Assembly: GCA_012862575.1 (NCBI GenBank)
Contig: BLSF01000025.1
Coordinates: 310,001 to 374,000, forward strand
Length of the DNA stretch: 64,000 bases
Direction: 5' to 3'
Source of the DNA: Parietichytrium sp. I65-24A
Taxonomy: Eukaryota; Sar; Bigyra; Thraustochytrida; Thraustochytriidae
The position numbers were made by a program, and so were the translations under genes. A model generated the notes under the pieces. That model had not been told where the DNA came from. It saw only the letters and a program-made list of their open reading frames with translations, and made no database searches. Within the stretch, counting starts at the first letter, position 1. The number at the start of each line of letters is the position of its first letter. This document shows, one piece after another, positions 2,031 through 50,753 of this stretch.

Positions 2031-3174
2031 ACGGCATGAGAGAGATGCAAGCGAGGGAGAAGGAAGAGAGTCCAACATTTTTGTATTCACAGTCAGCTCC
2101 AGTACCAGCACTCTACCTGGCTAGCCCTAGCTTGTCACTCTCACTGCGACAGAGGCAACAGGTAAGATATATGAGAAAACAAAAAGACCAAACCTCTTCG
2201 CGACCGCCCCACAAACACAGGCGATTTTTCTCCACCCAACGTTGTTGATTGACAATACGCGCACAAGTTATGTCTCTGCTATGATATAATGACATGCGAG
2301 TCCGGAATGGGAAGAATTGGGCAACAACGTTGAACAGCGAAATCGTATAGAGCTGCTACCTTCCTTCCTTACTAGTTCAAATCAACCGTGTTCCCGGGCT
2401 CACCCCACGCTCTGATTCTCCGTCTCCGTCTCCTTCTTCGTTTGTTTCTTCTTTTGCCCCCTTGGCTCGCCACCTATGAATCCCGGCCTAACTCTGGTTT
2501 CACTCCGCGCTCTCTTTCGCAGCAGCAGCGACGCATTCATCAAAATTCGATTCCATTCAATGAACATTCACAGTCAATGTGTCAAGGAGACGGGAAGAGG
2601 GGAAGAGGGGAAGAGGAAGGAGGAGAACGAGGAGCGGGAGGAGGAAAGACGAAGGGAGGTAAGCAGGGCGGTACTGACAGTGAGTACTGACTACTCCTTC
2701 CCTCCTTCTTGCTCTGTTTGGAATTTGGCATTTTTACTCCGTCATTTCTTCCTTCCCCTTTCTTCTCCAACACAAAAGCCAAGCCGCCGCTGCTTTTAAT
2801 TTCTCCGTGCTGCGTTCGTTCTCCCTCTGCGACAGCAGCGACACACTCCATGTCGTGATGCTGGAAATCACGGAAAGAAAGAATGAATTACAGCGACAGC
2901 GCAATCGCCACACATCACACCGCATCACACATCGTTGGTTGATTTGGATTGATTGACTGATTCATTCATTGAGAAGAAAAGCACAAAACCCAAATGCCCA
3001 AAGCCCCAAGACACGGACCACCACGGCCGTCAGGCTACCGATTGACTGTGGTCCACCATAGATAAGAAGCAGAGAGGGAGACCGAGAGAGAGAGGAGAGA
3101 AGTGAGAAGGAAGGAAGAAAAAGAAAGGAGCAGACTGGTAGCCCCCGCCAAAGCCCGATCGCTTGCAAAGACGC

Positions 3175-3176
3175 GC

Positions 3177-3208
<32 letters not shown>

Positions 3209-3262
3209 CGAGAGAGAGAGAGAGAGAGGAGGAGGCAGAGAGAGAGAGAGAAGGGAAAGGAG
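3175..3262. repeat. Long GA microsatellite
   Basis: About 85 bases of GAGAGA with GCGA and GGAGGA interruptions. Because the repeat has few stops it generates long Arg/Glu and Ser/Leu frames on both strands that are not genes. Confidence 0.85.
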
Positions 3263-3703
3263 CGGGAGGGAGAAAGGTAGGGAGAGAGCGAGACCTCAAG
3301 TTGTGCAAAACGGAAAGAAGGAAAGAGAGAAAGAGAGAAAGGAAGAAAGAGGACAGGAATTGGTCTTTGATTCCTGTTCTGTTGTGCTGTACTCTCACGG
3401 TCAGGTCAGCCTCTGTCTCTCTCTCTTGAAGGGCTTGTCTTGCCTTGCCTTGCCTTCGCTTCCTTCTCCCCATATACTGTCGGTCTCATGTTGCCGAGCC
3501 AAAGAGCTCGCAGGTCAACAAACACAATAAACATCCTCCCTGTGACCCTTGCGGCCCAAATTCCACATTAGTGTGACCAATTCCTCTCGAAGAGCTGCGG
3601 GAGGGAGAAGCCAGGACGAGCTCGCATCGGTTTGTTTGTGTGACAATACAACAGCACATCGCACACAGCCCAGTCGCACCGGCAGTCGCGAGAGAAACCA
3701 AAT

Positions 3704-3725
3704 ACAACAACAACAACAACAACAA
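3704..3725. repeat. (CAA)7 microsatellite
   Basis: Seven CAA units in a row, about 300 bases upstream of the AP2 gene. Confidence 0.85.
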
Positions 3726-4020
3726 ACCCCTCCCCACGTCCCCTGCTTTCCGTTCAGTCATTCAACCCTCACTGTCATTCTCTCTGCAAACAGCACACGG
3801 GCAAAAGTTACAACGCCGCAGAAAAACCTTGCAAGCCAAACGGACCCGGGGTTTTGAAAACCCGAACGGTGACGCGGCAAGAGCGCGCGCAGGTGAGCCA
3901 GGCAGAATCGATTCCCGAGGTGCGCTGCGGAAGGCTCAAACCAGAGTGGACCAGACGGCCCGCTGCCGAGGCGGGGTAACATCGTCATGCTCGTAGTTGC
4001 GACCAGTTCTGAGACCACCA

Positions 4021-6255
4021 ATGAGCAGGCGGCGGCGGGAGCACCGCAGTTTGCAAAACACCAATGATAGCCGGCTTGTCCATTCCATCGATAGGTCCGT
4101 GGTCGTTGAGCCGGCGGAAGAAACGAGAGCAAGCGCGCAAGAGCGAGGTCCGCGTGGACGCACTTTGAGTGCAGCTGCGAGCCAAGTGGAGAATGTGTCA
4201 TCGACTTTAGAACAACAGCGAAGAGCACAGCCATCTCCCGCAGTCCCGCGGCCCCCTCAACACCCTGAATATCCCGGGTACTATGTGTTTGTACGAACAG
4301 ATGTCCCTCGCGACGAGGCAGTCCGGCGTGTGGTACGCCAGATCGACGAAGGCTCCAGGAACGATAACCGCTCGACAGCACAACCCGACACCTTAGGCAC
4401 AGGACTTCTTCAACAGGAGATGGGAGTGAAAGATAAAACCCGTGCAAAACCAGGAAGAAGGAAAAATCGTGCAGACAGAGATACAGACGCCAAACCTCTA
4501 CTCGAAGTAGAGACAGCCCCATTGTCGGATCAGAGGCCCCGACGCAGTGCAACATCGAGTTCGTCTTCGTCCTCAGCAAAGGGCGCAAAGGGAAAGAGCT
4601 CGAAAGGGAAGAGGCGCGCGAATAAAGAGGACCAGGAGGTTCGTTCAGGTGATAGGGACAGCAGTAGCGACTCTTCCAATCGCATGACCAAGAGGCCCCG
4701 CAGTACAGACCCTCCGTTAAGTCACGGACCGTTCAACGCCCTGCCAAGCCAATCGGCTGTTCACCCACAGCAGCAACACGGAGCCGGACAAGCTGGTTAT
4801 CCCGGTGCGTTCAACAATCCCATCATGCCACATCAATTTTCCCCGTCGCCACAGTTTCATCCAGGGCAGGTGCAAATGGCTCCTGGACCTCCTCTTCCTT
4901 CCCCATTCATAGCGCCGTACGCGGCACTTGCTCAGATGAATTTGAGTAATAACCAGTTAGCACACACGACCCCAAGTTCAAGCAGCGGGGGGTCGTATCA
5001 GATCGAGCGTCAACCTACATTTGCTGAGCAACAGCAGCGAATTTTCCATGCTCACCAACAGCAAACCTCACAGTCCAAAATGCGCCAAGCACGCGAGCCA
5101 TTCCCTCCCCAGACGCCTCTTTCGCAACAAAATCCAATACATCACAGCGCTCGTCCGCTCAGGCCAGAGGGCATCAGGTCCTCGTCCTCGTCGTCGTCAT
5201 CGAGCTCTTCGGACACCACCTCAACTTCGATAGGTAGCCGTATGCCTGTCAGACAACCCGGCGCACAGTACCCGAGCGCACCTGGCCAGCAGCTGGACGG
5301 TTCGGCAAGTGTCGCAGGCAACCCTTCAGCCGACTTCCGCTCACGGCATCCTGGGGATGTGCTTCAACGAGGAGGACCACCGCCTCGCCCATTCCCGTAC
5401 CAAGAGGGGAACAATACTAGTCCCGTACAAGCCCTCCCTCGCCATCTTGCCGCACGAAGCGCAAGCGCTGGTGCGGTGATAGGTAACGCTGGCGGTGCAC
5501 CACCGCCAGCACCCCAGCAGGCACCTCAGTGCACAAACAGATACAACGGTGTGTCGTGGCACAAACGTGACAAGCGCTACACGAGCCGTGCATGGATTGG
5601 CGGAAAAACGGTTCACAGGGGCGCCTACCACAACATGCATCTGGCCGCAGTTGCAGTAGATATGGTGAAGATGAAACACCAGTACCACGTCAAGATCAAT
5701 TTTGCGGATCAACAGGATCACTTTAACATCCTGAGACAAGTGCTAGCTGCGGCGGAGGCGGGGGACCAACACTCACGGACAGACTTGGACACTCTCCTGG
5801 CAAATTTTGAATTCGCCACGCACGAAGTCTATCGACCTTATGCCGATCTGATTCTTCAAAGCCGGCCCAACCTAAACCCATTGATAGCCCAAGGAACAAA
5901 TTCGGCGGGGATCATGCGGAGCGCTACAGCATCACCACAGCCTTCCATCGCACAAGGGCATGAGCACACCCCTTTGATGCCTCAGCGGGCACCTTCAGGT
6001 AGTATTGAAGAGCAAGGCGGAGCAGCAACTCAAACCCCAACTCGTCCCGCTCAAGACGGGTTGGCAACTGTGCGACATGTGCAAGGGACGGCATCCTTCT
6101 TGCAACCGGGGCGGTCACTGGAGGATGCGCGCCACAGAGCTACGTCGCACACGGACGATGACCTTTTCCTGGGAGTCTTCTCCGCTCTTGAGTCCAGCGG
6201 TAGCAGCCACCAGGGAAACAGCTCACCGGAAAAGCGACACAACGACACCTACTGA
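4021..6255 (+). CDS. AP2/ERF-domain transcription factor (744 aa)
   Basis: Single-exon gene. The start is set at ATG 4021 (A at -3, CCAATGAGC); the frame upstream contains only a TTG. The first 500 residues are disordered and rich in Ser, Gln and Pro, with Ser runs and a basic KGKSSKGKRR segment that could serve nuclear import. One AP2 domain lies at about residues 507-561: it opens RYNGVSWHKRDKRY, has the conserved Trp513, and ends near YHVKINF. It is atypical: the usual YRG reads YNG and the RAYD element is AVDM. After it come about 180 low-complexity residues. AP2 domains bind DNA through a three-stranded sheet, so a sequence-specific nuclear regulator is the likely role; the target is unknown. 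A second AP2 gene lies at 37669. Confidence 0.85.
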   Translation: MSRRRREHRSLQNTNDSRLVHSIDRSVVVEPAEETRASAQERGPRGRTLSAAASQVENVSSTLEQQRRAQPSPAVPRPPQHPEYPGYYVFVRTDVPRDEAVRRVVRQIDEGSRNDNRSTAQPDTLGTGLLQQEMGVKDKTRAKPGRRKNRADRDTDAKPLLEVETAPLSDQRPRRSATSSSSSSSAKGAKGKSSKGKRRANKEDQEVRSGDRDSSSDSSNRMTKRPRSTDPPLSHGPFNALPSQSAVHPQQQHGAGQAGYPGAFNNPIMPHQFSPSPQFHPGQVQMAPGPPLPSPFIAPYAALAQMNLSNNQLAHTTPSSSSGGSYQIERQPTFAEQQQRIFHAHQQQTSQSKMRQAREPFPPQTPLSQQNPIHHSARPLRPEGIRSSSSSSSSSSSDTTSTSIGSRMPVRQPGAQYPSAPGQQLDGSASVAGNPSADFRSRHPGDVLQRGGPPPRPFPYQEGNNTSPVQALPRHLAARSASAGAVIGNAGGAPPPAPQQAPQCTNRYNGVSWHKRDKRYTSRAWIGGKTVHRGAYHNMHLAAVAVDMVKMKHQYHVKINFADQQDHFNILRQVLAAAEAGDQHSRTDLDTLLANFEFATHEVYRPYADLILQSRPNLNPLIAQGTNSAGIMRSATASPQPSIAQGHEHTPLMPQRAPSGSIEEQGGAATQTPTRPAQDGLATVRHVQGTASFLQPGRSLEDARHRATSHTDDDLFLGVFSALESSGSSHQGNSSPEKRHNDTY

Positions 6256-44249: not shown

Positions 44250-45554
44250 ATGAAAGTAAGGGTGCAGTGCGCAGAGACTTCGCGGCTGTGCGTGGCTTGG
44301 ACGTTTCGTGACCCGTGGTACGAGCATGTGGAGCGCGCTCTGGAGAAGATCGGTGCCTGCCAGAGGGGCAGATGCGGGTCGTTGGAAACCGTGCGCATGG
44401 AGGAGTCGCCGATAACCGTGAGGTGTGAACACGGCCATGAACATGCCATTCCGTTCTGGGTGAATCAGTCGCGTTCCAAGCTCAAACACGAGAGCGTGGA
44501 GGCTTCATCAAGCTGCTTTACTGTCAAATTGTATGTTCTCGGAGAAGAGATCGATAGCGCGGCTGATTACCCTTCGTCCTCCTCGTTTCCGAAACAAAAC
44601 GACACTCTCCTGTACACTATGGCGGACATCAGTTTTCTCTTTTGGTACCTCGAGTCCAAGCACTTGCTGGCCAAATACAAAGGCGATTCCGGCCTCGTGC
44701 CCGAATCTTATGCGTTGTCTTGGGACGCGTCCGCTGAATACATAGATAGTGAGTTTGGCAGGCAAATCACGAGCGAAGAACCTTATGTTCTCAAACGTGA
44801 CGGCGGTTCGAGTGGCTATGACGTGCACTTTGTCACGGACGTCCAAGACGTGCACAGGCTGATGCAGCAAGCACAAGAAATGGAAGAGGCGCTTCCATTT
44901 CTGGAGGATCGCGCCGTCGCGAACTGGTGTATACAAAAATTTCTCTCCGACCTGATGACTCTTCAGCATCCTGACGGCAACCTTCCCGAGGCTCGACACA
45001 AATTCCACATTCGTACGTACACTGTGTCTGTGGGCACCAGGGTCTGGATGTACAAAACTTTCGAAATTCGTCTCGCACAAAACCCGGTTGCAGCGGAGGA
45101 CTCGCTCTTTGAAGACCTTGGGCAGCACTTGACGAATGGTGCAAACTACAACGGGGCAGGCCGCCGATATTTGTCCACGGAGTTTTCCGAGTTGGACTTT
45201 TTAGAGACCGCGATTCCGGAATTCCTTTTGCAGCTTATCGATCCTGAGCAAGAGCCTGACACAAGCTCTGAAATTGGCTTTGAAGGCTGCAGGGAAACAG
45301 GTTGGCGCGACTTTGATCAGTATCCGGCTGCTGCAAAGCAGAGCCTCTCCGCGTGCTCCATCATTGGACACGATATCATGGTTGATTCTCAGGGGAGACT
45401 GTTCCTCTTGGAGAGTAACCACTCACCCAGTGCTCCACCTGCAGATTTGGATGATCCTCAATTTCTAGCCCATCTCGACACCCTTATTAAGGACCTGTTC
45501 AAGTTGTTGTTGGCCCCAAATGCTGATCATGAACCTTTTCTCCACCTGCTCTAG
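44250..45554 (+). CDS. Tubulin-tyrosine-ligase-like (TTL family, ATP-grasp) protein (434 aa)
   Basis: Start ATG at 44250; context is weak (C at -3) and the frame is open upstream without another ATG. TTL-type ATP-grasp blocks occur in the right order. YVLKRDGGSSGYDVHFV at about 179 is the nucleotide-binding lysine loop. WCIQKFLSDL follows at about 229. KFHIRTYTVSVGTRVWMYKT is the R-x-Y strand. HLTNGANYNG corresponds to the HLTN motif of TTLs. IIGHDIMVDSQGRLFLLESN at about 370 carries the acidic metal-binding E-x-N. The first 110 residues match nothing I know. TTL/TTLL enzymes add Tyr, Glu or Gly to tubulin tails. The divergent sequence leaves the acceptor open: it may modify another protein. 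Confident on fold, not on substrate. Confidence 0.78.
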   Translation: MKVRVQCAETSRLCVAWTFRDPWYEHVERALEKIGACQRGRCGSLETVRMEESPITVRCEHGHEHAIPFWVNQSRSKLKHESVEASSSCFTVKLYVLGEEIDSAADYPSSSSFPKQNDTLLYTMADISFLFWYLESKHLLAKYKGDSGLVPESYALSWDASAEYIDSEFGRQITSEEPYVLKRDGGSSGYDVHFVTDVQDVHRLMQQAQEMEEALPFLEDRAVANWCIQKFLSDLMTLQHPDGNLPEARHKFHIRTYTVSVGTRVWMYKTFEIRLAQNPVAAEDSLFEDLGQHLTNGANYNGAGRRYLSTEFSELDFLETAIPEFLLQLIDPEQEPDTSSEIGFEGCRETGWRDFDQYPAAAKQSLSACSIIGHDIMVDSQGRLFLLESNHSPSAPPADLDDPQFLAHLDTLIKDLFKLLLAPNADHEPFLHLL

Positions 45555-45968
45555 CTCGCAGCACGCGCCAGCCCCTGATTAGCAAGAGGCACTTCGTCCG
45601 TCGCTTGTTGACGAACAAGAGTAGTCTCGGGCCACTGCCCCGAAAAGGGCAGTAACAGCTTCAAATCTTTATCGAACTTACTGTTAGTGACCGTAATCAA
45701 TCATGTTTATTTCCACAAGCTCGTCTTCTCCGACGAACGTCTCGAGAATCATTTAACCTCATCCGCCCGTGCTTTTCAGCCGAGCGCCTTGATTAAAAAG
45801 CTCCGCTTACCATACTAAAAACTTGGGCTCTCAGTCAGAGATAGTCAGAGCCAAGTATGTGCTCGGCATTGTACTAATTAGAAGTCCAACTCTATTTATC
45901 TTGGACAAACGAAAGACGGAGCCGCAAGAGCGTTCGAACGGCACTTGGGTCTTCGCGAGCATGAGCAG
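45555..45968. other. Intergenic: TTL-like 3' end and OGT-fusion promoter
   Basis: 0.4 kb between two plus-strand genes. A TCTATTTATC stretch at 45891 lies about 75 bases upstream of the OGT-fusion ATG and could be a weak TATA element. An out-of-frame ATG lies at 45961 (separate entry). Confidence 0.4.
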
Positions 45969-45981
45969 ATGGGCGGGCTGA
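45961..45981 (+). promoter_or_regulatory. Upstream ORF overlapping the OGT-fusion start codon
   Basis: ATG at 45961 opens a six-codon frame (MSRWAG) ending TGA at 45979-45981, so it spans the main ATG at 45969 in a different frame. Its context (A at -3) is better than that of the main start (C at -3). If the mRNA leader includes it, most scanning ribosomes would be diverted, which would hold output low or make it conditional. If transcription starts between 45961 and 45969 it has no effect. Confidence 0.5.
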
Positions 45982-48900
45982 AGCTTCTCGCGTTGTTCCT
46001 GCTATGTTGCTGTGCTCGAGGCGGCTCGAAAGAGGCTGGTACGGAGGCAGGAGGAGCGGCGGAGGCAGAGGCAGAGGCAGTTTTTGTGCGTAGCTCGGAG
46101 CGCGGAGTCCACGACAAAGATCTGCTGGAAGCGCTCTCGGCGTACCAGTCAGGGAAGGCGGAATTGGCGGGCAGAATTTTCGCCCGGAAAGTTGAGTTGG
46201 AGCCCAGGAACGTGGACGCATGGCACGTGTTCGGAGTGGTGGACCTGCTGGAGAAAAGGGTTGCCGAGGCGGTGGACAAGTTTGAATTGGCAACCCGATT
46301 GGATGGAACAAGAGCAGACATTTGGTCCAACCTTGGCGAGGCGTATCGGCTCGCGGGTGAGCTTCCTAAGGCAATCGCGGCGCTCAAGAAAGGCCTCGAG
46401 CAATCAGAAACGCCTGAACTTCACCTCAACCTTGGGACTGCACTCGAAGATATCGGAGATGCAAGCGGAGCACTGCAAGCATATCATCGCGCGCTGGCGC
46501 GAGCGCATGACTCTGGCAACAAGCGCATGGCAGAAAAGATTGCCAACGCGTATGCAAGGATAGGAGCGTCCGAGCTGGCGATAGAGACTTCCCTGACTTG
46601 GAGTGACGGGCTCTCTGGAGTATGCAGCAGCATGCTGGATGGCGGTGTCCGAGAAATTAGAGCAAAGAACCTTAATTCAGCAGAGCTCCAGCTGCGAAGC
46701 GCTCTCCAGTGCTTCGAATTGAAGCTTGACCGCTTAAAAAATGACGTCGACAGGGCTGAAGAGAACCACATAAAGTCTAGACAGGCGACAGCCCATTGTC
46801 TGCTTGGAACTTTGTACTTTAGTTTGCAGAACGACTATATTCGCGCTGCGCAAGAGTATTCTAAGGCACTGAGAATCGACGCATCACACGCTCTTGCACA
46901 CAACAACTATGGCTCCCTCCTCTGGCAAATGGGGTATGAGCAAGAATCAATGTTGCATCTTCATGAGGCGAGTCGCCTAGACCCAACGATGGCTGAGCCA
47001 AACGTGAATCTCGCAAACTCGTACTATGAGTTTGGCGATATCAATCTCGCAAAGAAGCATTATAAGATCGCAATTTCTAAAAATCCCGGGCTAGAAGCGT
47101 CATTAAGAATGCGGATGCTCTCTTTGACGAGGCCAATTTTACCAGCATGTACCAGTCGACAGAACTGTACAAACGTCTGGCGAGTGCCCATCGGTAAGGT
47201 TGTAAAGAACACTATGAAGCTTGCGATGGACGCACAAGTTGGCAATAAACCTTGGCTAATCGAAGATCCAGTTCACCATGTCGAGCGGCTTCCATTCTTC
47301 AACGTGTATCAAGGCGAAAACGAATTCTTCTTCCAGGCAAGAGTACATCGTTTATACATGGCCACCATGCCATTCATCCTGTCGGAAGAAGCTAACGCGC
47401 TTCCAGCTTCGCCATCCTGTGACGCGTTGCTGACTGGCCAGGCGCCATCTATAAAGGTTGGTTTTGTCTCCAAGTTTTGGCACGATAATCATCCACATGG
47501 GCAGCTCCTCGCAGGTGTCATATCCGGCTTGCGACAACTGCAGCGCGTAGACAAGGTCTACGTTCTCTCCATTCCGAACCCACGCGGGGGGCCATCAAAG
47601 GACCTTTTCGATGCAGTTGGCGACCCTGAGAGAGTTGTCGACCTCAAAGGTGGGCTAAGTGGAGCAATGAAAACCATCTCAGCGCTTTGTTTAGATGTCC
47701 TCATTTACGCGGACACAATGAGCGAACCGGTCTCACACTTTCTGACCAACTTTCGCTTGGCTCCTGTGCAAGCCTCTTTCTGGGGCAATCCGATCACGGC
47801 TGGTACAAGAAACCTTGACTACTTTATTAGTGGAGATTGGATGGAGCCGGGTTGTGCTGCCATCTGGTGCTCTCCGCACCATGCCCCCCACTACCATGAG
47901 CAGCTGGTGCGTCTCCCCGGGCAAGCCATACATTATCGTTCCATCAACGTTCCAGCCAAAGCGAGAGCAGCGGTGCAACGAAAGAAAGCGAACTGCATGG
48001 AAGCTAATAGGGTAGTTTTCGGCGTCTTACAGAGCACTTTCAAACTTCACCCAGCATTCGACCTCGTACTTAATCGCATTCTCGATGCAGTACCCAACAG
48101 CGAAATCTTGTTCTTGGAAGGCAGGAAAGCTAATTGGACTGTGCTTCTGAGAGAGAGGTTTCTTCAGACAATTCCCCTGGGTGCTGGAAGGATTGCCTTC
48201 TTGCCCAGAGTATCCTCCAGCGAGGAGTATTTCCAGCTTTTGGCAAAATGTGACATCATTTTGCACCCTTTCCCTTTCGGAGGTTCGAAGACCTCTCTCG
48301 ACGCGCTTCTTCTCGGCCTTCCACTGGTTGCCATGAATGGCGCTTTCCTTCGTGGAAGAATGGCTTTTGCGTACTTGAAGAAACTCGGACTCACACACTT
48401 CGTGGCAAATGACGCGGACCACTACGTTACTATTGCAACTCAACTGGCGCGAGACTGTACCCCGCGATTGTCATTCATGACCGCTCTGAACTCTGCGGCT
48501 GAGGACACTCTTCTGAATGACGAATCTGTCGTGAAAGCATGGGAGCAATGGATGCTCAGAGCAGTAGACTCCGCGCGACTAGAGCTAAAACTCAGCGAAC
48601 AGATTCGCATTCTGAAGGGTGAGATCGGAAGAGCAAATAACTCTGGCAATTTGCATGGAGCGCTGCAGCTGTCGCAGGCTATTCTTGGTCTTGGGGCCAC
48701 GGATACAAATACATTGAATGACCATGGAGCAATTCTCAAGCAGCTAGGGCAGCTTCAACCAGCTGTCGAGTATTTCCGTCAAGCAGTCCAAGCTAATTCG
48801 CGGAATTATGTGGCGTTAAACAATCTCGGAGTGACTTACAATGAAATTGGTGACCTCGACATGGCCGAAACGGCTTTCAATGCTTCATACAACAGTAATC

Positions 48901-49940
48901 GCACGTACCCGGGTGCCGTGTACAATCTTGGCAAGCTTCTCGAACGGCGAAACAGGACAGATGCTGCCTTCGGGCTGTATGCTTCGTATCTCAACGTTAG
49001 TGCTTTGGCTCCTGTTGAGCGGGCTGCTGTCCTCATTCTGTCCCTGTTTCGCTTTAACTCGGCCCAGAGTAAGGAAGTTGCTGGGCAACTCGATGAATCT
49101 TCAAGGAGAAAGCTTGCACACCTTCAGAGCGCTCGTCAATTTATTGAAATTGCCAACAGTGCAGTCCAGCTTATGGATCCCGCTGACTTTAACTTTGCCC
49201 AAATCACACACCAGTTTCTTGTCGCCGAAACGTGCCAGAGTATGACGGTGACTAGGATTGCAATCGTGACGCAGCTCTATCATCCAATGATGCAGTCCCG
49301 ACATCTGGATCTCTACTCTGCGTTCACTACGAACCTTCACAACGATTACATACAGGAGATTCACCTACTGGCTGAACCTGGATTTAACTTGGCCGACTTT
49401 TGTCAGAAAGGTAGAATATTGTCTGATGGGCCAAGCTGTACAGATGCACTGATAAGAGAGAAAGTCGTGTTGAGAAAACACCCCGGTCGGATCACTTTTG
49501 CGGAAGGGTTCGCCTACATCAACGCGAATCTTGCGGGGAAATATGCCTTTCTGGTAAATGCAGACATTGCTTTCGATGACTCTCTTTCTCGCCTGCCTGG
49601 CCTTATGCCTCAGGGGCGACACATGCTTGGGCTCTCGAGGTGGGAGCGCGACGCGCACGGGTCGTGGTATTGGGCTCCGAGGATCGATTCACAGGATGCT
49701 TGGGGTTACCTGCCGCCCCTTGCAATTGACTTGTCGGAACTCAACATAGAGCTTGGTCGCCCGCGTTGCGACAATCGCGTCGCCAGCGTACTTGAAAAAG
49801 GAAATGTAACCCTCATGAACCCGAGCCTTGACATTCGTATCCTGCACCATCACAGTTTTAGGGAAAACACAAAAACATCACCAGTACCTGGAGATGGCCA
49901 GGTAATTCTGCTGGAGTTGCCGCGGTTTACCTCACTCTAG
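45969..49940 (+). CDS. Signal-peptide TPR / O-GlcNAc-transferase-like / TPR / glycosyltransferase-like fusion (1323 aa)
   Basis: Start set at ATG 45969; the longer frame begins at TTG. Residues 1-20 (MGGLKLLALFLLCCCARGGS) look like a signal peptide. TPR units fill about 45-215 and 275-400 (for example NVDAWHVFGVVDLLEKRVAEA). A GT41 (OGT/SPY/SEC) catalytic region lies at about 494-840. It contains GFVSKFWHDNHPHGQLLAG (catalytic-His area), ASFWGNPITAG, VVFGVLQSTFKLHP (Lys equivalent to the UDP-contacting Lys of OGT) and HPFPFGGSKTSLDALLLGLP. A second TPR block follows at about 870-1010. The last 230 residues (about 1090-1323) look like a GT-A-type transferase: LVNADIAFDDSL with an Asp-rich site, then LSRWERD and PRIDSQDAWGYLPP. 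OGT normally acts in cytosol and nucleus; this one appears secretory and perhaps bifunctional. Acceptor unknown. Confidence 0.85.
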   Translation: MGGLKLLALFLLCCCARGGSKEAGTEAGGAAEAEAEAVFVRSSERGVHDKDLLEALSAYQSGKAELAGRIFARKVELEPRNVDAWHVFGVVDLLEKRVAEAVDKFELATRLDGTRADIWSNLGEAYRLAGELPKAIAALKKGLEQSETPELHLNLGTALEDIGDASGALQAYHRALARAHDSGNKRMAEKIANAYARIGASELAIETSLTWSDGLSGVCSSMLDGGVREIRAKNLNSAELQLRSALQCFELKLDRLKNDVDRAEENHIKSRQATAHCLLGTLYFSLQNDYIRAAQEYSKALRIDASHALAHNNYGSLLWQMGYEQESMLHLHEASRLDPTMAEPNVNLANSYYEFGDINLAKKHYKIAISKNPGLEASLRMRMLSLTRPILPACTSRQNCTNVWRVPIGKVVKNTMKLAMDAQVGNKPWLIEDPVHHVERLPFFNVYQGENEFFFQARVHRLYMATMPFILSEEANALPASPSCDALLTGQAPSIKVGFVSKFWHDNHPHGQLLAGVISGLRQLQRVDKVYVLSIPNPRGGPSKDLFDAVGDPERVVDLKGGLSGAMKTISALCLDVLIYADTMSEPVSHFLTNFRLAPVQASFWGNPITAGTRNLDYFISGDWMEPGCAAIWCSPHHAPHYHEQLVRLPGQAIHYRSINVPAKARAAVQRKKANCMEANRVVFGVLQSTFKLHPAFDLVLNRILDAVPNSEILFLEGRKANWTVLLRERFLQTIPLGAGRIAFLPRVSSSEEYFQLLAKCDIILHPFPFGGSKTSLDALLLGLPLVAMNGAFLRGRMAFAYLKKLGLTHFVANDADHYVTIATQLARDCTPRLSFMTALNSAAEDTLLNDESVVKAWEQWMLRAVDSARLELKLSEQIRILKGEIGRANNSGNLHGALQLSQAILGLGATDTNTLNDHGAILKQLGQLQPAVEYFRQAVQANSRNYVALNNLGVTYNEIGDLDMAETAFNASYNSNRTYPGAVYNLGKLLERRNRTDAAFGLYASYLNVSALAPVERAAVLILSLFRFNSAQSKEVAGQLDESSRRKLAHLQSARQFIEIANSAVQLMDPADFNFAQITHQFLVAETCQSMTVTRIAIVTQLYHPMMQSRHLDLYSAFTTNLHNDYIQEIHLLAEPGFNLADFCQKGRILSDGPSCTDALIREKVVLRKHPGRITFAEGFAYINANLAGKYAFLVNADIAFDDSLSRLPGLMPQGRHMLGLSRWERDAHGSWYWAPRIDSQDAWGYLPPLAIDLSELNIELGRPRCDNRVASVLEKGNVTLMNPSLDIRILHHHSFRENTKTSPVPGDGQVILLELPRFTSL

Positions 49941-50081: not shown

Positions 50082-50753
50082 TCAGAGATGGGACTGTGGG
50101 CGAGAGTCGCCAACCCGCGGCAGGTCATTCAGCTCGCGGACAAGCGCGTCGGTTGTCACCTGGCGACAGAAGCCGCCGAGCTCTCGCAGAGCAAACTCAT
50201 GTCTCTCCATCGTCAGCGTGAAGCACGCATCTGTCACCACAGTCACCAAGTATCCCAGATCGCATGCGTGCCTCACTGCAGAGGACACGCACTGATCCGT
50301 GAGCATACCGACGATAACGAGCTGCCGCACGCCGAGGTTTCTTAGCACATAGTCAATGTTTGTGGACACGAACACGTCGCAGGACGTCTTGGGGATCACC
50401 ATTTCATCTGCAACGGGCCGCACGCGCTCGTCCACTTGCGCATCAAAGCAGCCTTTCGGCAAGTTGAACCCGGAGATCTTGTAGTCCAAGCTCCTATCGC
50501 GCCCGTCCTTCGTCAGGCTCTCGATCACCGTGAACATCACCTCCACCCCGCTCCTCCTCGCTGCTGATTGCACTCTCGCGATCTTCTCCACGAACGCCTC
50601 GCGTCTGGCCGCGTCGGCAGCCGGCAAGTCCCCGTCGTACAACACGCCGCTCGGAGCGAGGCTCCCATTCTGCACGTCCACAACAAGCACGGCGCTCTGC
50701 TGCGAGCGCAGCGCCACCTCCCGCTCCTCCGTCCTTGGCTCGTAGCTCGCCAT
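50082..50753 (-). CDS. Isochorismatase-fold cysteine hydrolase (223 aa)
   Basis: Start set at ATG 50753 (A at -3); upstream extension begins only at GTG. The whole chain is one isochorismatase-like domain: AVLVVDVQNGS with catalytic Asp26, VIPKTSCDVF with Lys122, and VIVGMLTDQCVSSAVRHA with nucleophile Cys155 and the preceding Gly-Met-Leu-Thr turn. The Asp-Lys-Cys triad is intact, so the enzyme should be active. Family members hydrolyse C-N bonds in nicotinamide, N-carbamoylsarcosine, ureidoacrylate or isochorismate. The segment after strand 2 (SLTKDGRDRSLDYKISGF) resembles the ureidoacrylate/cysteine-hydrolase subgroup more than nicotinamidases, but the substrate is not certain. It converges with the OGT fusion, with only 141 bases between the stops. 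Confidence 0.88.
   Translation of the reverse strand: MASYEPRTEEREVALRSQQSAVLVVDVQNGSLAPSGVLYDGDLPAADAARREAFVEKIARVQSAARRSGVEVMFTVIESLTKDGRDRSLDYKISGFNLPKGCFDAQVDERVRPVADEMVIPKTSCDVFVSTNIDYVLRNLGVRQLVIVGMLTDQCVSSAVRHACDLGYLVTVVTDACFTLTMERHEFALRELGGFCRQVTTDALVRELNDLPRVGDSRPQSHL

Follow-up and report, generated by a model that had tools for sequence, protein, structure and literature searches.

A predicted secretory GT41 glycosyltransferase with a C-terminal GT-A-fold domain in the genome of Parietichytrium sp. I65-24A

The window analysed here is a stretch of 64,000 nucleotides from Parietichytrium sp. I65-24A (contig BLSF01000025.1, positions 310,001 to 374,000 of the forward strand), part of contig 25 (G000) of a 42.5-Mb assembly that we judged eukaryotic by its gene content. 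At 45969-49940 on the forward strand, where all features of this gene given below also lie, a single frame runs from an ATG through 1323 codons without an internal stop and encodes a protein of 1323 amino acids (aa). A hydrophobic N-terminus leads into tetratricopeptide repeats (TPRs); a GT41 catalytic region comes next, then further TPRs and, last, a C-terminal domain. This four-part order (TPR, GT41, TPR, GT-A-like), proposed in a preliminary description of the stretch, is borne out by Pfam matches together with a model of the C-terminal domain. The best Pfam stretches for TPRs fall within residues 93–155, 271–373 and 891–1009, and no best stretch for the whole protein lies past residue 1009. 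The first TPR region covers about residues 55–375 (46131..47093) and the second block about residues 887–1013 (48627..49007).

The GT41 region, of the GT-B type, spans about residues 431–872 (47259..48584), as marked by Pfam, by sequence matches to solved structures and by bacterial matches. The protein scored 58.9 bits against Glyco_transf_41 (PF13844, gathering cut-off 25, best stretch 673–834), and the core alone scored 63.3 bits. In NCBIfam, the sole match of the core was an N-glucosyltransferase model, at 76 bits far under its cut-off of 1000. Among solved structures, the best match of the core was SPINDLY, a plant GT41 protein O-fucosyltransferase (77 bits), followed by the GT41 N-glucosyltransferase HMW1C/ApNGT (3q3e, 66 bits), whose Lys motif is alike (STTMKLNP vs. 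QSTFKLHP). OGT has the TPR-GT41 order and the aligned Lys in common with the window protein, but its score was lower, at 48 bits. A plasmid-borne protein of Azospirillum sp. B510 (WP_158306039.1) has the same arrangement of TPRs and GT41 core, with 33% identity (178 bits, 92% of the 480-residue query); at 646 aa it ends soon after GT41, and by Pfam the second TPR block and any further transferase are absent. The best paralogue of the core in the own genome is 27% identical over 299 residues. The label "OGT-like" used in the preliminary description is therefore not supported as worded, as the GT41 part is nearer to alphaproteobacterial TPR-GT41 proteins, SPINDLY and HMW1C/NGT than to OGT, and the genome holds a separate OGT-like gene (L019) whose N-terminus is not hydrophobic and whose core is 16% identical to that of the window protein.

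An alignment of ten GT41 rows, with animal OGT and plant SPINDLY not among them, gave a tree in which one split (100/100) separated L019 and its genomic companions L009 and L010 from a group of the window protein, three further paralogues (L006, L007 and L008) and three bacteria; the placing of L006 and L007, both on long branches, is unsure. K692 of the window protein (48042..48044) aligns with the Lys of SPINDLY, NGT and the own OGT-like protein, and a Lys stands at this position in all ten rows but L006. We take K692 to match hOGT K842, a conserved active-site Lys, and polypeptide transferase activity is predicted for the region. L019 (867-3815 on contig 45) reads GNYP at a position occupied by NHP in the window protein and by DHP in both L009 and L010; the Tyr of L019 takes the place of a His that contributes to the active site of human OGT. 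Phage tblastn with the GT41 core gave no match at 1e-5, and a viral scan with it returned zero relatives.

The last 294 residues alone had zero Pfam or NCBIfam matches, and the C-terminal domain matched no PDB sequence, either as a single sequence or as a profile; one PHROG match (E 0.12) was disregarded. An AlphaFold model of residues 1085–1323 was nevertheless confident (predicted local distance difference test, pLDDT, 89; predicted template-modelling score, pTM, 0.88). It was built with 68 bacterial and viral relatives, to which 124 domain rows had been reduced at 85% identity, with L005, L024, L025 and L026 left out. In a VIA-align comparison, glycosyltransferases occupied 50/50 rows among the matches listed, with CHSY3 at the top (Z 13.0, root-mean-square deviation (rmsd) 3.4 Å over 185 residues), and with SpsA (Z 12.3), WrtF and ppGalNAc-transferases (about 12) further down. 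The top PDB rows in Foldseek were mostly RmlA nucleotidyltransferases, but the superposition was poor (template-modelling (TM) score about 0.4, rmsd 9–10 Å), and we take these rows to reflect a common Rossmann-like core; CHSY3 gave a TM score of 0.56–0.58. In a viral structure library, the best rows were a protein of a phage (TM 0.74) and one of a Cedratvirus that bears the name glycosyltransferase (TM 0.76). The GT-A identity that had earlier been surmised is thus supported by a confident model and its structural matches, and the domain of predicted GT-A fold covers about residues 1094–1304 (49248..49880).

A metal-binding Asp pair had also been expected in this domain. The acidic motif NADIAFDD is indeed present after a strand, but it is an NxD and not an Asp pair. 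Since the rows were chosen by patterns around NxD and SQD, the invariance of these motifs is partly circular: N1197-A-D1199 (49557..49565), directly after the model strand 108–112, is found in 69/69 rows, and in S1241-Q1242-D1243 (49689..49697) the three residues are kept in 65, 66 and 68 of the 69. Near the C-terminus, H1293-H1294-H1295 (49845..49853) has its first His in 68/69 and its third in 62/69 rows. We take SQD and HxH to be the xED-type base and the metal-binding His of GT-A enzymes. Because of how the rows were picked, the sole independent conservation is that of R1111, N1122, R1174, R1224 and H1293, which are absent from the search patterns and each occur in at least 68 of the 69 rows (R1224 is invariant, 69/69). 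These counts bear on the alternative that one catalytic unit has no activity and instead acts as a scaffold or binds acceptors. Decay does happen in this set, as L006 is without the GT41 Lys, and the GT-A motif is NxD rather than DxD. In the window protein, however, K692 is kept, NxD is the norm of the family, and the five residues outside the search patterns are conserved, so that we regard an inactive unit as rather unlikely.

With the GT-A domain as query, tblastn gave matches at E 3e-10 in cyanophage S-SKS1 and at E 6e-6 on a plasmid of Salipiger. A Burkholderia match (E 0.2) was disregarded, and Enterococcus matches (13 phage and 18 plasmid records) were put down to chance, as they cover a third of the query and, among the listed rows, those with an annotation lie in phage DNA encapsidation or terminase genes. 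With an alignment of the window, S-SKS1, Salipiger and huge-phage domains, relatives turned up in bacterial genome records (33) and in viral contigs (136, of which we retained 80). When the query was the window domain by itself or A1, viral scans returned zero relatives. By these sequence searches, the domain appears to belong to a widespread family of bacteria, phages and giant viruses that is unnamed in Pfam and NCBIfam, and in bacteria and phages it is, as far as the predicted proteins tell, often joined to other glycosyltransferases. The Salipiger protein joins it to an exostosin GT47, with gmd, a GDP-fucose synthase gene and a GT10 gene nearby, and in S-SKS1 a nucleotide-sugar epimerase gene adjoins the gene for the domain. 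A fusion scan of long relatives at E 0.01 (22 domain-bearing frames of at least 394 aa, minus L129, whose frame length and score are the same as those of L128) found GT47 in 12/21, GT2 in 3/21 and GT1-type transferases in 2/21, with many of the 12 GT47 fusions coming from related alphaproteobacteria and so not being independent events. Fusion to such varied and unrelated transferases suggests a role in glycan assembly in general and not in a GT41-specific step. It favours the alternative that both transferases of the window protein work in one lumenal chain, but on separate acceptors or on a wall or scale polysaccharide, so that the fusion would do no more than hold them side by side, with no disaccharide made in cis. 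We consider this a serious possibility, if somewhat short of probable; TPRs joined to GT41 are the arrangement of polypeptide-modifying enzymes such as OGT and SPINDLY, which argues against it.

Some viral relatives are built in other ways. One huge-phage protein of 1122 aa (L026:1093-4461) has four different transferase-like regions in a single chain, namely GT47, a nucleotide-diphospho-sugar-transferase, the GT-A domain and GT25, and viral contig proteins carry the GT-A domain in tandem, in three copies (L130:3989-6031) or two (L126:3059-6784). In a Spirulinaceae cyanobacterium (L052), a gap of 50 bases separates a GT41 frame (2674-4929) from the GT-A-domain frame behind it (4980-5768). A frame ahead of the GT41 frame, at 1983-2594, looks type IV pilin-like by eye, and the whole row (L052:1983-5768) would suit a candidate protein glycosylation cassette.

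The N-terminus of the window protein, MGGLKLLALFLLCCCARGGS, places Lys5 before a hydrophobic core at residues 6–15. The best 10-residue mean Kyte-Doolittle hydrophobicity in the first 40 residues is 3.11, a value reached by 1/30 background frames (ATG frames called mechanically, 200 aa or longer, in the window and at nine genome loci, with GT41 genes and L005 excluded). Residues 1–18 (45969..46022) are therefore signal-peptide-like by hydrophobicity, in keeping with the signal peptide described earlier, and cleavage after A16-R17-G18 is possible. We predict that the segment functions as a signal peptide and that the protein is located in the lumen of the endoplasmic reticulum (ER) or Golgi.

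The window protein is not a lone case in its own genome. Searched with the whole protein, the core and PF13844, the genome yielded at least seven GT41-like genes, each of them one open frame, and six of the seven have a hydrophobic N-terminus, four clearly and two at background level. The best 10-residue values for L008 (3.40), L010 (2.90) and L009 (2.60) were each matched by at most 1/30 background frames. L007 (2.06) and L006 (2.04) were matched by 4/30 and 5/30 and are borderline, so a secretory pattern across the genome rests on four clear cases. Both are also weak members of GT41: L007 has no Pfam GT41 match, and L006 scored 68 bits with a core profile built without it. The canonical OGT-like L019 stood at 0.09. 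As clearly hydrophobic N-termini are present in both GT41 clades, relocation of GT41 may have occurred more than once. L010 (941-5206 on contig 23, 1421 aa) combines such an N-terminus with GT41, TPRs and a different C-terminal end, which reached 22.8 bits with Glycos_transf_1 (PF00534), below the cut-off of 26.4, and gave no match among PDB sequences; this weakly suggests the same plan with a different, GT-B-like second head. The GT-A domain also occurs on its own in L005 (1712-2773, reverse strand, contig 5, 353 aa), where a hydrophobic segment starting near residue 31 precedes it, a predicted topology like the type II topology of Golgi enzymes. Donors could reach the lumen through the products of five nucleotide-sugar-transporter loci of the genome.

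The explanation that we favour, and hold to be probable with some reserve, is a lumenal two-headed polypeptide glycosyltransferase, in which TPRs hold the acceptor, GT41 starts the glycan and GT-A extends it. The protein would be made into the ER or Golgi lumen, with its N-terminal superhelix of TPRs, probably aided by the second block, serving to hold polypeptide acceptors there. A first sugar would go onto the side chains of Ser, Thr or Asn in secreted or wall proteins through the GT41 GT-B unit, from a branch common with bacterial TPR-GT41 proteins. The GT-A unit, of the bacterial and viral family, would then extend that glycan, or one next to it, by a second sugar. A disaccharide built by one chain, as the preliminary description suggested, would thus be possible. 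We infer the activity of the two units, their donor sugars and acceptors, and their cooperation in the window protein.

Several observations weigh against a two-headed lumenal enzyme, among them the partly circular motif counts and the two borderline N-termini given above. The C-terminus is without KDEL or HDEL, and no retention signal was seen there. N-glycosylation sequons, considered as lumenal support, were rejected since they show no excess (8 vs. 6.8 in shuffles). An AlphaFold model of residues 398–1323 made without an alignment was of low confidence (mean pLDDT 34), and therefore no spatial relation of the two active sites was obtained. The idea that GT41 and GT-A genes are common bacterial neighbours was not borne out: a GT41 gene lies near the GT-A gene in 1/113 bacterial and viral loci (flanks of up to 5 kb), and the two are neighbours in 1/8 domain-positive genomes, among 386 of the cyanobacterial phylum. 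Finally, the start of the gene is uncertain. An out-of-frame ATG at 45961 opens a frame of six codons (stop at 45979-45981) that overlaps the assigned ATG at 45969, and its -3 base is A, against C at the assigned ATG. This short frame (45961-45981) could be a means of translational control or a sign that the start is wrong, and an exon further upstream is conceivable.

The better -3 base of the overlapping ATG would suit a cytosolic window protein, in which the hydrophobic stretch has no signal-peptide role or the true start lies elsewhere. Two papers describe SPINDLY, a GT41 enzyme, as nucleocytoplasmic (PMC9715652, PMC10027727), which would agree with such a location and is unlike the lumenal one that we predict. 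Clearly hydrophobic N-termini in 4/7 GT41-like genes from two clades speak against a cytosolic location, as does an oomycete secretome table that includes three GT41s of Saprolegnia parasitica and two of Achlya hypogyna (PMC4316629), which we take to be predicted secreted proteins. All in all, a cytosolic protein seems improbable. The three alternatives discussed here are not mutually exclusive.

GT41 is best known for nucleocytoplasmic enzymes, and known relatives each have part of the window protein's plan. HMW1C/ApNGT is bacterial and is not known to have TPRs or a fused GT-A unit, and we know of no SPINDLY with a fused GT-A unit. EXT1, LARGE and the chondroitin synthases carry two glycosyltransferase units per lumenal chain but are not known to contain GT41 or TPRs; CHSY3, which heads the structural matches of the window protein's GT-A part, is one of these two-transferase secretory enzymes. 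For brown algae, the average is about ten GT41 genes, many of them in groups distant from characterised activity (PMC11468063; the term "signal peptide" does not occur in that text), and a cryptomonad genome table gives 88 and 60 GT41s in two columns (PMC6260743). With the oomycete table, the prediction of a secretory GT41 seems to have precedent, so the kind is not wholly new. Among the matches listed from the open-licence literature, titles and abstract openings mention no signal-peptide GT41 fused to a second transferase, and as far as those matches go such a fusion is without precedent in the literature covered.

A broader reading, which we put forward tentatively and regard as possible rather than likely, is that in this lineage polypeptide glycosylation by GT41 has entered the secretory pathway in both clades and a second, unrelated transferase has been attached at least twice (GT-A here, GT-B-like in the contig 23 gene). 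Glycans on secreted proteins would then be started and extended in cis on targets chosen by TPRs, and the GT-A unit would come from a family common to bacteria, phages and giant viruses to which Pfam and NCBIfam have yet to give a name. If true, this would be a little-studied route for sugars on secreted or cell-surface proteins, and TPR-guided polypeptide glycosylation would also operate in the ER and Golgi. At least four of the seven GT41-like proteins would be secretory, with a second transferase clearly on one and possibly on another, offering a defined system for TPR target choice outside the cytosol. The GT-A domain itself points to a widespread bacterial and viral transferase family that has no Pfam name.

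The genes flanking 45969-49940 are a tubulin-tyrosine-ligase-like gene at 44250-45554 on the forward strand and an isochorismatase-like gene at 50082-50753 on the reverse strand, and they provide no functional context. A profile search for PsbO gave zero matches in the genome; by this test alone, the host may be non-photosynthetic. Elsewhere in the assembly, contig 66 holds a frame of 5583 aa with repeated matches to PfaA, a PUFA-synthase model (the 13 PfaA matches genome-wide are all below the cut-off), and a frame of 1956 aa on contig 68 (L021:407-6277) combines, by eye, ketosynthase, methionine-synthase-like and flavin-monooxygenase-like regions.

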